From: Chalara sp. BL73
Taxonomy: Eukaryota; Ascomycota; Leotiomycetes; Helotiales
NCBI GenBank assembly: GCA_918026815.1
Contig: CAKJVC010000020.1
Coordinates: forward strand, 1-30,382
DNA length: 30,382 bases
Reading direction: 5' to 3'
Shown here: positions 23,723 to 29,946 of the stretch, piece by piece
Layout: every line of letters begins with the position of its first letter
How positions within the stretch are numbered: the first letter of the stretch is position 1
The notes under the pieces: generated by a model
Told to the model about the DNA's origin: nothing
Seen by the model: the letters and a program-made list of their open reading frames with translations, nothing else
Databases searched by the model: none
Program-made: the position numbers and the translations under genes

Positions 23723-23730
23723 CCCACAAT
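23723..23730. repeat. Left target-site duplication CCCACAAT
   Basis: The 8 bp before the element are identical to the 8 bp after it (29939-29946). Eight-base duplication is characteristic of hAT insertion. Confidence 0.95.
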
Positions 23731-23850
23731 TAGACTGCGAACTGGGGTCCCACGGGGCGGGTTTTCACCTACTTGACCCCACCCGTCGGGGTCCCACCCC
23801 ATGGGTTGGGGTCTATCAAAAGCACCCACCCCACCCCATGGGGTCTTGAT
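23731..23850. repeat. Left terminal and subterminal GC-rich repeats of the hAT element
   Basis: The terminus TAGACTGCG is followed by a cluster of short direct and inverted GGGGTC, CCCACGGGG, CCCATGGG and CACCCCA units to about 23850, including the palindrome-like GGGGTCCCACCCCATGGG near 23790. Clustered subterminal short repeats are the usual transposase-binding region in hAT elements (family knowledge). The composition contrasts sharply with the AT-rich interior. Confidence 0.8.
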
Positions 23851-24076
23851 AGGGTGCCAAGCACCTATTACATTTACACGTGACATTACAATAGTTGCTG
23901 TACAGTTAGAGAAGTTATACTAATAAGCCTACTAATCAAAAAGCTACGCGACATAAACGTATTAAAATTTTGGTTTGTGAATTTTATTATGTGCTTAGCG
24001 CCCTATCGCTAGCGTGTATACCTTTAATAACTTTATTGCTTAACTTATTTCCTTTGTATGAACTGCGTTTGATTCT

Positions 24077-24626
24077 TTAACACCGGCCTGGGTACTTGTA
24101 GCCCGTTATTCCTTCTTTCATTCTTTGAACTAAATGCATATTCTTTACTTGAATAGTAACTTTTTTAGCGTGGATTGCAGCAAGATTTGTGACTTTAAAG
24201 TAATATTAGTATAAATATTAGTATAATGTATTTATATGAAATAACTTACGCTCGAACTCAGCTACTAAAGCAGATTCTGCGGCTTTTTGGAGACATTGTA
24301 AAGCACTAAGTTGAATGCGAAATGCGTGTCGAGACGTAATATTATACATTATTTCTTTAACTAGTCGAGTAAATGGAGCTTTTGGGATTAAAAGCTCAGT
24401 GCTTTTTTGGTATCGTTTGATTTCTTTAAGTGCTTTGGCTACGTTTAAATGTTAGTTTTATACTAATTATTATATTAATCAACTTACTGCTAGGTTTCAA
24501 TCGATATTTCTTTTTTAGTACAGCTTTTGCAGAGGTTTTAGCAGAAGTTTTGGCAGAGGTTTTGGCAGAGGTTTTGGCAGAGGGTTTGCGAGCAGATTTG
24601 GTAGCTATTTTCTTGGTACGTGCTAT
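24077..24626 (-). CDS. Transposon-borne histone H3-like protein (divergent, CenH3-like features), three exons
   Basis: Histone H3 is a nucleosome core protein. Exons (minus): 24626-24488, 24438-24250, 24192-24077, with introns of 49 and 57 nt (gtaagt..gtag and gtaagt..aaag). The 146-residue reading starts ARTKKIATKSARKPSAK, matching the H3 tail ARTKQTARKS and keeping Lys4 and Lys9-Ser10. It then has a TSAK repeat where H3 has its K14-K27 region, then KKKYRLKPSTKALKEIKR and YQKSTELLIPKAPFTRLVKE (alpha-N and alpha-1; RYQKSTELLI identical to canonical H3). ALQCLQKAAESALVAEFE follows, then LTNLAAIHAKKVTIQVKNMH. Loop 1 is two residues longer than canonical and the C-terminus is extended past the usual RGE end (KEGITGYKYPGRC). 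No frameshift or stop. The codon before ARTK is ATA (24624-24626) instead of ATG, or the exon begins after an upstream intron ending at that point. Fold assignment is very secure; start and function are not. Confidence 0.93.
24529..24588. repeat. Five 12-bp tandem repeats inside the H3-like tail
   Basis: Five units of GCAGAGGTTTTG (plus-strand sense) with one or two differences encode repeated (T/S)-S-A-K on the minus strand. The repeat multiplies Lys residues flanked by Ala and Ser/Thr in the histone tail. Slippage could change the number in other copies. Confidence 0.9.
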
Positions 24627-25150
24627 TGTAACTTATTAAGATTAGAATAAATATTAGTATAATACAGAATGATATGTACTTGTGCAAAGTCGCAAATTTA
24701 TTTTTAGAAAAAGTGAAGGTGAATGTAAATATTGACACGTGAAATTGAAATTATAGCTTTGTGATTTCGACGAGAAGACTATAAAGAATTAGTATAATAA
24801 TTAATATAAAAATAGAATATAAAAAAGATAAATATAATACATACTTGTGTATAGTGTAGTTGTTAGTAAATTTAATTGAAGGTTAAAAGAAGTCAGGTTT
24901 GAAAAAAGTAGTTTAGTGCTTTAAAATCGAGGCATAAAAACGCGACTGTTTTATTTTTCAGGATAACGCGTACTTTTTTCTTATTCATTCTTTTTGCACC
25001 AACTTATTAAATCTGAACAAAGTCAAACATTTATTGCAGTACGTGTTTTTGGTGTATTATATTAATTTTTATACTAATTTTTGAAGCTTTAGTTCTTGCG
25101 AGTTGAAATTTGCAAAATACGCCTACTTTTCGGTTGCGTTACTTTCCAAT
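24627..25150. promoter_or_regulatory. Shared upstream interval of the H3-like gene and the second gene
   Basis: About 520 bp between divergent starts. On the minus strand it contains two intron-like segments: gtatgt..ctttatag (about 24843-24773) and gtacat..caatag (about 24681-24625), each holding a copy of the doubled 11-bp unit. The H3-like gene may therefore have 5' UTR or N-terminal exons here; no ATG in frame with ARTK was found. On the plus side a similar intron-like segment (about 25042-25092) precedes the ATG at 25151. Promoter function is inferred from position. Confidence 0.45.
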
Positions 25151-26451
25151 ATGGCTTCACTTTTCGAAAAGCAGCTTTTTCAGGTAATTTTTATTGAAAT
25201 ATTATATTAATTTGTATACTAATCGGTTTCAAGAATATTATTGTTATTTCTGATAATTCAGATCATGAATTTGATATGGATTTTAATTCTTCGCAGCAAA
25301 TCGGTTTTTCCAATAAACGCAAGCGCAAATCTCCGGGCAGTTTTTCTACTAATGTGCATACTGTTAAAGCTAGAAGAAGACTTGAAGCTATAAAAAGCAA
25401 CAGTATTCAAAATCAGATCGAAAAAGCGAAAGCCGCAGATCAAGCAGCAATTACATACCGAAAAAAGTCTTCAAAAGTCTGCTGAATTTGCACTCGCATT
25501 TTTGCCGAGCAGAAGCGAATGATTGAGCAGTTTGCTTTGCAAGTTAGAACAAAGCGGTTCGTTTAATTTTGATTATACTAATTTTTATACTAACTTGTAT
25601 AGTGAACGAAATGGCAAAGATTGGAAATCTGTAGCAAAAGCTTTGGGTTATAGAGAAATTGGTGGCCTATATGCAATTGATAATGATGGAAATCCAGCAT
25701 GGGAAGATATTGAGTATGAATCGGAAGACGAATACGAGTTTGAGCATATGTAGAGATTGAATGAAAAGCAAAACGGTGATAAAGCAGTTGTCGGCAAATC
25801 TGCTAAAGAGTTGAAAAATGACGGGATTGCTAAGCATAAACGATCTATTTTAGTAAGTTTCAGATTAATATAATGATTCGTATAACGCTAATACAATTTC
25901 AGGATGCTAAAAAGCTTGAATTTAAGTTTTGGCAAAGAAAATGGCGCCGAAGCCGTCGATCTTTGTTCCGCAAAATCCGAAAGCTTGCTGCTGGTGGACA
26001 GGAATACTTGGAAAGAACAAGCTGTTTTTATATTTACAAGAAGTACAAAATTCTACTAATTTTTATACTAATCTGCTAACTGATATAGCAAATTCTATGC
26101 GTATAAAACTTTTGAAAGATACTTTATTTAAGGAGAAAAGGCAATTTGGAAAAATCTTGCAGCATGAGTATACGGAAATGAAGAGTGGATCGATCTGCCG
26201 GGCCCTGCAAATTGGTGGCCAGCCGACGATAAGTTAAATGACACAGGATTCGGCTTTTCCGATTCGTTGACAGGCTATAAAAAGCGTTTGATATGGTATA
26301 TGCTACGGAAATTCCGGAAGATGGATCATACGAACGTATTTTCCCCGCTTATAATGATTTGTTTTTGATGACAGACAATTTTTTAAGTCAAACAATCGTT
26401 AAAGCATTTTTTGGTTTACAAAGCAGCTTTCAAAGGCCGCGTAAGCTGTAA
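25151..26451 (+). CDS. Second hAT-borne gene, unknown function, damaged
   Basis: The ATG at 25151 starts MASLFEKQLFQ, spliced (intron 25184-25233) to a Ser/Lys-rich segment with the nuclear-localisation-like SNKRKRKSPG and a helical stretch RRRLEAIKSNSIQNQIEKAK. Introns at 25557-25602 and 25853-25902 follow, then an acidic segment WEDIEYESEDEYEFEH. A further intron (about 26043-26088) leads to MRIKLLKDTLFKEKRQFGK and then EEWIDLPGPANWWPADDK, GFGFSDSLTGYKKR and FPAYNDLFLMTDNFL, ending at 26451. In-frame stops are TGA at 25483 and TAG at 25751. Frame changes near 25930, 26175 and 26295 are mostly consistent with single lost bases. I do not recognise the family. Position beside the transposase suggests an accessory transposition protein; it could equally be cargo. 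Confidence 0.6.
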
Positions 26452-26889
26452 ATGTATATGTAGTTTTTAAGTATATACAACAAATAAAGCAAAGAACTTT
26501 AAGCAGATATATTCAATTTTATACTAATCTTTATACTAATCATTATATTTTACATTAATTTTTGGAAGTTTAATTATAGCTTTTAATATGTACAATTTTT
26601 TTGAAGTAGTAATTTAATTTGTGTTTAAATACTTGTTTTTTCTTTCCGATTTGATGCTTTTTTTACTTGCACACTTTTGTTGCTATAGAGTCAAGTAATT
26701 CGCAAAACTTTTTGATTCTTTTAGCTCATTTGAGTCAAATATTTTTGACAATTTACTATTTTCGCAAATTAGTTCAAAAACCTATATTTTCGATGGGAAC
26801 TCGAATATCACGATAAGTTTGTTGAATAGTGGTTAAGTACACAATAGGCAGTTCAAGCAGTTGCAAACTAATCAATTGATTTAGTAAAG

Positions 26890-29499
26890 CAATTAAATTG
26901 GAAATCTTAAAATCGAAAATCTATTGCTTGGAAACAATTCGATTAAAGAATACACCGGATCACCGGAGAGTTTAAAGTCATATGTCAAAACTGCAACAAA
27001 GTTCTCGCACATCTAAATACGCGGAATACCGGCACAAAAGCTTTGTCTGGTTATATAGCGTTTCGGCAATGCTTTGTTTATTCTAGCCAAAGTAATACAA
27101 AGCAGAAAAAAGTGGAAAACATATTTCACGCTATTTCTGTAAGTAGATTAGTATAAATATTAGTATAATGTCTAATATTAATAGCAACTAATCTTTACGA
27201 AGCAAGCATTTCACGACTAGGTTTTTGCAACTATTGTTTCACTTCGTATTTCTTTCCGCGCAATCGAAAATCCTGAATGGAGAAAGCTAGCTGTTATGCA
27301 AAATCCAAATTTCGAACTTCTTTTGCAATAACTATAAAGAATCGACTGATGGAACAATCAGTCAAACTTGAACAGAACATGCTTTTAAATGTTGTTCCTG
27401 GAAGCAAAATTGCAATTTTTCTCGATTGCTGGTCTAGTACAACAAAACTATCATTTATAGGTATAATAGCTCACTATATTGATAAGTTATGGGCTCTTTG
27501 TCAAGAATTAATAGGATTTAAAAGTTTAGTAAACGTTTATTCCGGAAATGCGTTTGCTTAAGTTGTCAATAACGTTTTTCAACAGCACAATCTTTTGATC
27601 GTGTTGTTTCAATTACAACTGATAATGCGAGTTCGAATACTACAATAGTTTTCGAAATCAACGAGTATTTACAAGAAGCTTTGAAAGCTAATAGTATTCT
27701 GAAAAGAAAGTCTAACACGTGCCGTGTTTATCGCATGTGATTTAGTTTAGTCTTCAAGCACTTTTAGGCTTTGTTCAATTGAAGCCTACTAACGACACAT
27801 TTGTTCGGAATTGAGTAACAGAAAAGAGCTGTTTGATCTTGAAAGAATCAAAGCTAGTAACAAACGTAGTATTCTATATATACTAGCAAAGGTATGTAAC
27901 ACGTGACTTTTATACTAATTTTTATACTAATTTTATATTAGATTCGAAAGCTTGCTATTCTTGTTAATTCCAGTGCACAGCGGAAACATCGATTTCAAAG
28001 AGTTCAACAAAAACAAATCAGAGATTTATCTTTTCCGAATGATCTAGTTTTTACATTGTTAATTGATGTATGCACTCGATAGGACTTAACAGTGCATATG
28101 ATTCTTCGTGCATTGCGTCTTAAAGAGTCTATCAATCAATTTTGCAGTGTATACGATCTTGCTAAGCTTTTTTCATTTTCTGCATTAGAATGGAAAAAAC
28201 TTGGCTATTTGGCCGATTTGTTACGTCTTTTCAATTTTTTACAACAACAATCGGCAAAACAACAAGCATAACATTGCTTTATGCTTTATCAATTTACGAT
28301 GAATTGTTTGAACACTTGCAAGAATCTCGTCGAGTATTAACCAAAAAGTCTGTTGCTTAACTTTGGGTAAAAGATTTAATTAGTGCGATTAATGCTGCAG
28401 AAGCTAAGCTTGATACTTACTATAACAAAACATATAGTAGTTTTAGTAGTTTGTATAGCATCGGAGCAATTCTTGATCTAAAATCGAAGCTAAAATGCTT
28501 TGAAGAAGATTATTGCTGGCTTAATTTCAAAACAGTTAATTGGGCCAAAGAATTTAAGCGTCAATTTCGGTCGTTATACGATACAGAATATAAAGAAAAG
28601 TTTACGAATGCTGACCGACTTTTTAAATTCGAAAAGTTAATTACGACTTTTTAGCATTAGCATTAAGTCGCAAGCGCTTTATTCGAGACATTCAGAACTT
28701 TTATCGCAAAGATAATGACTTTTTTCCTTTTGAAATTGATGAATGGCTAGCTATGAGTATGTTTACAATTCTACTTTTTATACTAATTTTTATACTAATC
28801 TTTGTGTTGTTTTTTTAGAGCCTAATAATCGATCACCGCTACTTGTTTGGAAATCGCTTGAAACACAGCTTCCTGGCTTATTAGCAATAGCTAGGATTTA
28901 CTTTGTATCCCGATGGCCGGTGTTGGAGTAGAACGTACTTTTAGTTTTGCACGTGATATATGCGGATATCGCTGTAGCCAGCTTCAACCGACAACTATTC
29001 GGTCGCTTTTTTGGTTTATTATTCGCTCGTTGAACATTCACGAACACGTGAGCTTTAAAACCTACTATTTTCAACTATTAATATCTAGGATATAACACTT
29101 GAAGATATAGAAACGGAAATTAAAACGCGAGAAAATGACTTTGAAGTCTAACTTGATCAAATTGATTTTTGGGAAAATTATTACTATATTAGTGATGAAG
29201 AACCAGAAGGAAACGAAGAAGTTCGAACTCGTCGTGCTCAAAAACACTGGGATTACAAGATTTCTAAATCTTTACGTCAATCAATTTATCAAAATCAGCC
29301 ACTTTCGACTACTCAGTTTTAAAATACACTTAGGAATCGCTGCGAACCGTTAATTGAAACAACGAACTGGGAACTATCTAGTAATAGTAGTCAAAAGCTG
29401 CCTCGACTTCCGACTTCTGATATTGGTAATATTGTGCCGGATATTCCAATAGGCATTCACAGGTCAAAAAGCAAAAAAAAATTAGTTTTAGAATATTAG
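26890..29499 (+). pseudogene. hAT transposase, multi-exon, with stops and one-base frame breaks
   Basis: Order of recognisable parts: a BED-type zinc finger (VICQNCNKVLAHLNTRNTGT then KALSGYIA, where a zinc-ligand His is probably replaced by Tyr); ISFRAIENPEWRKLAV; the RNase H-like core start SKIAIFLDCWSSTTKLSFIG then AHYIDKLWALCQELIGF; VVSITTDNASSNTTIVFEIN with the catalytic-region TDNAS; PCLSHVI.FSLQALLGF; KIRKLAILVNSS; DVCTR.DLTVHMILRALRL; YSIGAILDLKSKLKCFEEDY; and the C-terminal dimerisation block MAGVGVERTFSFARDICGYR. Introns: 27139-27184, 27892-27941, 28757-28817, 29048-29088. About nine in-frame TAA/TAG codons, several at positions where Gln or Trp is expected, plus single-base losses (for example T5 at 28646-28650 and C3 near 28911). 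A long hydrophilic C-terminal extension ends at 29499. The N-terminal limit is not determined. Confidence 0.85.
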
Positions 29500-29804
29500 T
29501 GTTGTATTATTATAATTCACAATTTTTTCCACTCTATTACAATATGTTTAAATTTAACATTTGAAGTTTAATTTTTATACTAATTTTTATACTAATCAAC
29601 CACTTTGCATTTCAAGTACTTTTGTAAAAACAAGTATACAAAATAGCTTTGTTTAACCTGTGTGCATATAGAAAAATCAATGCCAAAACTGGAAAGAATT
29701 ATTTCGATACTAGAATACTTCGTATATTTTTAAAATTCCACCAGTTCGCCCTACATTCTTGTAAAGGAGTTTGATTGTAGTTTCTATATTTAGTTAATCT
29801 TATC

Positions 29805-29938
29805 GGGGCCCCATTGGGGTCCCGGTCGGGGTCAAAATACACAACCCACCCCACGGGGAAGCGAGCCTCGAAGACCCGACCCACGGGGTCCCATGGGTCG
29901 GGGGCCCCGGCCCGCCCCGTGGGTTTCTGCGCAGTCTA
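29805..29938. repeat. Right subterminal GC-rich repeats and terminal repeat
   Basis: Clustered GGGGTC, CCCACGGGG, CCCATGGGTCGGG and GGGGCCCC units from about 29805 to 29923, ending in TTTCTGCGCAGTCTA, the inverted copy of the left terminus. It mirrors the left end in composition and motif content. Confidence 0.8.
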
Positions 29939-29946
29939 CCCACAAT
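29939..29946. repeat. Right target-site duplication CCCACAAT
   Basis: Identical to 23723-23730 and directly abutting the element end at 29938. Confidence 0.95.

Follow-up and report, generated by a model that had tools for sequence, protein, structure and literature searches.

What is a gene for a histone H3-like protein doing inside a hAT transposon? The question is raised by a 30,382-nucleotide stretch of the genome of Chalara sp. BL73 (assembly GCA_918026815.1, contig CAKJVC010000020.1, positions 1 to 30,382 of the forward strand; hereafter the window), in which a sequence-only reading had placed a minus-strand H3-like gene with two introns between hAT ends. The gene, here called H3L, is real, its three exons spanning exactly 24077-24626 as claimed. 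The ends are confirmed as TAGACTGCG and CGCAGTCTA, terminal inverted repeats being a feature of the hAT superfamily, and they bound a 6.2-kb element flanked by an 8-bp target duplication. The element and its genes are arranged as follows.

23723..23730, no strand: left target-site duplication, CCCACAAT
23731..29938, no strand: whole hAT element, TAGACTGCG...CGCAGTCTA ends, with 9-bp terminal inverted ends
24077..24192, minus strand: H3L exon 3, end of the histone fold and C-terminal extension (KDMHLVQRMR..MTGYKYPGRC in open copies)
24250..24438, minus strand: H3L exon 2, first part of the histone fold
24488..24626, minus strand: H3L exon 1, tail; first codon ATA here, ATG in younger copies
25151..26451, plus strand: central gene, five exons (25151-25183, 25234-25556, 25603-25852, 25903-26042, 26089-26451), broken in the window copy
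26685..29485, plus strand: hAT transposase, four exons (26685-27138, 27185-27891, 27942-28756, 28819-29485), broken in the window copy
29939..29946, no strand: right target-site duplication, CCCACAAT

The same reading had described H3L as free of stops and frameshifts, and the neighbouring transposon genes as carrying several such defects. Both descriptions are borne out, the H3L exons being open throughout, whereas the central gene has a length that is not in frame and contains 7 stops, and the transposase gene contains 34. The intactness of the window H3L extends to its reading frame but not to its start codon, which is ATA in place of ATG. The coding introns lie at codons 45 and 106, and the sequence makes a further intron upstream of the coding region, in the 5' UTR, probable. 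When the exons of open copies are joined, their product matches the Pfam Histone family (PF00125) at 8.7e-30 and, among solved H3 chains, the best at 3.9e-33, which excludes a chance likeness to histones. The histone fold is assigned by sequence, as a predicted structure for H3L relatives (mean pLDDT 63) is too poor for use and gave no PDB match at E <= 0.001. A 12-bp tandem repeat (window 24513-24608) encodes the AKTS repeats of the tail, and one copy of the element (L033) has one repeat unit fewer.

The other two genes differ in how readily they are placed. For the transposase, taken from the open copy L011, the hAT dimerisation domain (Dimer_Tnp_hAT, PF05699) is found at 1.5e-9 (37.9 bits against a cutoff of 21.4) and the Hermes transposase is matched at 1.2e-5, while the RNase H-like profile PF14372 reaches 20.0 bits, below its cutoff of 27, and the zf-BED profile 14.2 bits, below its cutoff of 20.6. 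No Pfam family was found for the central protein, which has two relatives, in Chlorociboria (44% identity) and Tricladium (41%), and the structure predicted from these two is too poor for use (mean pLDDT 44). In open copies the central protein begins with MASPFEKQPPQDIIVISDDSD (window 25151-25270), including the stretch DIIVISDDSD, which we take to resemble a SUMO-interacting motif.

Whether H3L belongs to the element or to this one copy of it can be judged from the rest of the genome. Of the 35 matches that a DNA search with H3L gave, three (L038-L040) are short and weak and show no H3L-like frame among frames over 70 aa; the others fall into 30 element copies, of which two are each divided between two matches. 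Searching with the transposase yielded 33 matches, spread over 30 copies, and the central gene 30 matches in those same copies. All these copy counts are lower bounds, and a copy without any of the three genes would escape such searches. H3L is present in 29 of the 30 transposase-bearing copies found. The exception, on contig C53, gave no H3L match and is missing element positions 1-2010, which include the left end and H3L; the sole H3L copy without a transposase, on contig C135, runs off its contig. Complete copies lacking the gene, named beforehand as the case that would refute the proposal, are absent among the copies found, and the H3-like gene is a constant component of the element.

Thirty copies were fetched, the window copy among them. 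Leaving out five that are without one end, perfect 8-bp target duplications are present in 25 of 25, and 24 different left duplications indicate 24 insertion sites. The window copy and L010 (contig C18) have an identical insertion site and flanks, and the left flank of the partial copy L035 (contig C135) is identical to that of the window copy, so the three contigs may represent a single locus that was assembled more than once or in alternative forms.

Among the 24 full-length copies that were aligned, H3L is open with an ATG in four, the central gene is open in eight and the transposase in three, with L011 the only copy in which all three are open. Over 6.2 kb, thirteen of the 24, counting L012 itself, differ from L012 by no more than 6 substitutions, and the element has therefore spread recently. 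A 1-base length change in H3L exon 2 is present in 11 of these 13. Many length changes sit in homopolymers and are distributed among the copies in mutually conflicting patterns; those in exon 2 may be real, in which case H3L is dispensable in cis, or may be homopolymer or assembly noise. The older copies are heavily mutated by C-to-T change, and H3L therefore does not prevent such mutation. For instance, 229 of the 257 substitutions between the window element and L012 are C-to-T or G-to-A towards the window. With L011 as the reference instead, changes of this kind mostly have A or T as the next base (CA 98, CT 95, CC 25, CG 8). The decay of the window copy is RIP-like, but without the strict CpA preference known from Neurospora.

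The earlier statement that no such case had been described was wrong, as hAT elements with H3-like genes have been published, the first reports of similar elements coming from pathogens of wheat and banana (PMC3538342, PMC6710886). Manning et al. (2013) describe a 5.6-kb hAT element of Pyrenophora tritici-repentis with a transposase, a central ORF and an H3-like gene, present in 26 near-identical copies and with ESTs for the H3-like gene, whose product matches neither H3 nor CenH3 and which is read there as a transduplication, perhaps since drifted (PMC3538342). That element shares with the 6.2-kb element here the anatomy of a transposase, a central ORF and H3L between terminal inverted repeats, and the two are likened by anatomy; there is no Pyrenophora protein among the matches listed for H3L (the best 120 of 7647), for its C-terminal part or for the central protein. 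Dhillon et al. (2019) report hAT elements with H3-like sequences in Pseudocercospora, Cercospora and Sphaerulina (Mycosphaerellaceae), the P. fijiensis element being about 9.5 kb and each carrying one or two intronless H3-like copies, all inactivated; the Pyrenophora and Mycosphaerellaceae events are treated there as independent captures of transcripts (PMC6710886). The Mycosphaerellaceae elements resemble the present one in having 8-bp duplications, an H3-like sequence and C-to-T decay. They differ in that the element here is 6.2 kb, has two coding introns in H3L, a central gene, and some copies that are open.

The relatives of H3L bear on its age. Among the best 120 of 7647 matches are a Bisporella protein with 90% identity to H3L and a Tricladium protein with 62%. 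A search with residues 98-147 alone recovered 24 proteins out of 35 candidates, including proteins of Clarireedia and Hyaloscypha and a second Tricladium protein. By these relatives alone, a leotiomycete host is probable. This second Tricladium H3L (P0124) and the Tricladium central protein (P0002) are each on a contig of 521,878 bases, which suggests that they lie on one and the same contig. In a tree of 27 rows, run as had been proposed against host H3 and CenH3, a branch with support 95/90 separates the seven chosen H3L proteins from the rest, both host proteins included; the sister of this clade is a protein from a metagenome (P0129; 88/74). Three of the seven (P0034, P0042 and P0047) entered the tree on a C-terminal likeness noticed beforehand, and a tie to any transposon would be conjectural for them. 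As H3L groups with proteins of other Pezizomycotina and not with host H3 or CenH3, it looks old rather than freshly captured. Three further metagenome relatives (P0125, P0126 and P0127) read as if carrying an unspliced intron at the place of codon 106, suggesting that this intron, too, is old.

H3L resembles CenH3 in its divergence from H3, in its longer loop 1 and in having a changed tail. Unlike CenH3, it keeps ARTK, and W84 is absent in five of the seven clade members and present in two. A tree in which CenH3 is held together with H3L is disfavoured (p-AU 0.031, with one CenH3 row only).

Which parts of H3 have been retained, and which changed, was read from an alignment of the seven-member clade in H3 numbering, with the functional meaning of each position taken from general knowledge. 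All seven keep K64, R69, R83, H113, R116, T118, K122, D123, L126 and R131. All seven change R63, and three change R129. In addition, L103 is changed to E, D106 to L or M, I124 to M and A127 to V in every member, and these four positions presumably lie near where two H3 molecules meet. The tail of the H3L in this element keeps ARTK4 and K9, but departs from the canonical arrangement, in which K9 and K27 each stand in an ARKS context: R8 is replaced by T, ARKS is missing at the K27 site, and an AKTS unit is repeated. Loss of the repressive sites is not uniform in the clade, with R8 present in P0047, the Talaromyces relative, and an ARKS motif found elsewhere in the tail of P0034.

The suggestion that the gene had been kept under selection is sustained for the cassette of three genes together, but not for H3L alone by codon counts. 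The two little-decayed lineages represented by L011 and L012 differ by 38 substitutions without a C-to-T skew (15, with 17 the other way and 6 transversions). In the cassette there are 19 synonymous and 5 nonsynonymous codons, divided as 1:0 in H3L, 6:1 in the central gene and 12:4 in the transposase, counts that skip gapped codons, the L012 transposase having two length changes. Against a simulated neutral synonymous share of about 0.31, purifying selection is indicated for the central gene (p 0.004), the transposase (p 0.0004) and the three genes together (p 1.7e-6); H3L alone, with one codon difference, has no power (p 0.31). The cassette taken together is under purifying selection between these lineages. 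In the window copy, H3L differs from that of L011 by 8 synonymous and 11 nonsynonymous codons, which gives no sign of selection and is as expected for decay.

A second feature of the element is a 21-bp paired motif, consisting of two TATACTAAT units at a 12-bp step. With up to one mismatch, TATACTAAT occurs at 33 sites in L011, against 2.8 expected and at most 8 in 100 simulated sequences, and 30 of the 33 form 15 head-to-tail pairs, a system of sites dispersed between L011 coordinates 185 and 5885. By comparison, 5 matches, none exact, lie in the 23.7 kb of window that precede the element. Each of the nine L011 coding introns (46-62 bp long) holds one pair, and none of the 15 pairs touches an exon, although 4,212 of about 6,231 L011 bases are coding; this pattern was not reached in 200,000 draws under two random-placement controls. 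The window copy retains six exact pairs.

24205..24225, minus strand: paired motif TATACTAATNNNTATACTAAT in H3L intron 2
26520..26540, plus strand: paired motif upstream of the transposase gene
27147..27167, minus strand: paired motif in transposase intron 1, antisense to the gene
27911..27931, plus strand: paired motif in transposase intron 2
28779..28799, plus strand: paired motif in transposase intron 3
29576..29596, plus strand: paired motif near the right end of the element

A genome search for the pair pattern, allowing up to one mismatch, gave 410 matches, and a reversed control none. The element copies that were read account for 375 of the 410, two are in contig C9 and 33 remain. The two pairs in C9 (L044 1543-1563, L045 1564-1584) lie within an apparent intron of another transposon-like gene, and they count against a motif that is purely element-specific. 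Use as a plain splicing branch point is insufficient alone, since six of the nine intronic pairs are sense and three antisense to their gene, the three introns with antisense pairs hold another CTAA[CT] closer to the 3' splice site, and 6 of the 15 pairs are outside coding introns.

The reading favoured here, tentatively and with real room for error, is that H3L is a chromatin component acting for the element, likely an old and selected part of it, that replaces host H3 on the element and hinders silencing. Altered nucleosomes on the element's own DNA were one of several roles put forward by the sequence-only reading. H3L protein would replace host H3 in nucleosomes on the element, and the resulting nucleosomes would mark the element and resist silencing. 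Most residues of the (H3-H4)2 tetramer and the ARTK4 tip are retained. The host methyltransferases for the repressive K9 and K27 marks would mark H3L poorly, since it is without R8 before K9 and without an ARKS-type K27 site, and H3L may prefer pairing with itself, given the clade-wide L103E, D106L/M, I124M and A127V changes near the H3-H3 contact. More speculatively, the central protein or the transposase could bind the 15 paired TATACTAAT sites and so bring H3L to the element, a link between paired sites, central protein and H3L that is offered as a proposal only. The fuller version, in which an old Pezizomycotina hAT lineage builds its own chromatin from a private H3 and a protein recognising the 15 paired sites, with nucleosomes open to active marks but closed to repressive ones, is unlikely as a whole.

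The main rival is that H3L is a passive passenger, a transduplicated histone coding sequence that has multiplied with the element and drifts without a role. Published cases are read in this way (PMC6710886, with drift suggested in PMC3538342), and the exon 2 length change in most of the near-identical copies and the uninformative 1:0 codon count for H3L are both consistent with it. However, the fold has been kept across relatives at 62-90% identity, with clade-specific residues and the support of 95/90 noted above, and across such a divergence a freely drifting gene should have lost its frame. Against Tricladium, moreover, H3L is the better conserved, at 62% compared with 41% for the central protein, the two Tricladium proteins in this comparison being on different contigs. 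A passenger without a role is accordingly judged improbable, if still a serious contender.

A smaller chance is given to H3L acting in trans, as a genome-wide decoy or poison of host silencing that engages histone chaperones or the K9 and K27 methyltransferases. A tail with ARTK4 and K9, but with a changed R8 and K27 site, could bind some of these partners while staying unmarked, and the apparent spread of copies whose H3L is broken is what a product acting in trans would permit. The tetramer and DNA-contact residues are, however, largely kept, which would be needless in a soluble decoy, and a broad poisoning of H3 should harm the host. It is also doubtful, to a similar degree, that H3L serves transposition itself, for example by making the ends accessible to the transposase or directing new insertions towards particular chromatin. 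The gene does lie beside the transposase in nearly every copy, and the paired motif is also found near both ends, but the 24 target duplications, compared by eye, have no common sequence, and most hAT elements move without a histone. Finally, a fresh copy of this host's H3, as the sequence-only reading had supposed by proposing capture from the host, is very improbable: the host has a normal H3 gene, to which the H3L fold is 64% identical, but the nearest protein among the matches listed is that of Bisporella, the H3L clade excludes host H3, and the host H3 introns are near codons 9 and 127 (by our own reading), at codons different from those of H3L.

If H3L is indeed old and selected, evolution has equipped mobile DNA with its own histone variant, and the reading of such genes in print as accidental captures would have to be revised. 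Escape from silencing by altered nucleosomes, and not by removal of DNA or histone marks, would become testable, and a natural self-sorting H3 might be at hand for chromatin work. A partial parallel is provided by fungal DNA transposons, hAT elements among them, that encode TET/JBP dioxygenases (Kojima 2025; PMC12730594). These likewise carry a chromatin-related gene thought to aid escape from silencing, but their cargo is an enzyme acting on methylated DNA and not a histone.

New here are the H3L clade across Pezizomycotina and, probably, the paired motif of the element; a literature search, with most subscription journals outside it, listed two papers on H3 in hAT elements and no earlier report of the clade. 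Scans of viral contigs confirmed no relative of H3L or of the central protein, giving three single motif matches. Outside the clade, an H3 variant of Aspergillus arachidicola (P0102) is also without R8, having AAKS at that site, and the surroundings of its K27 are changed.
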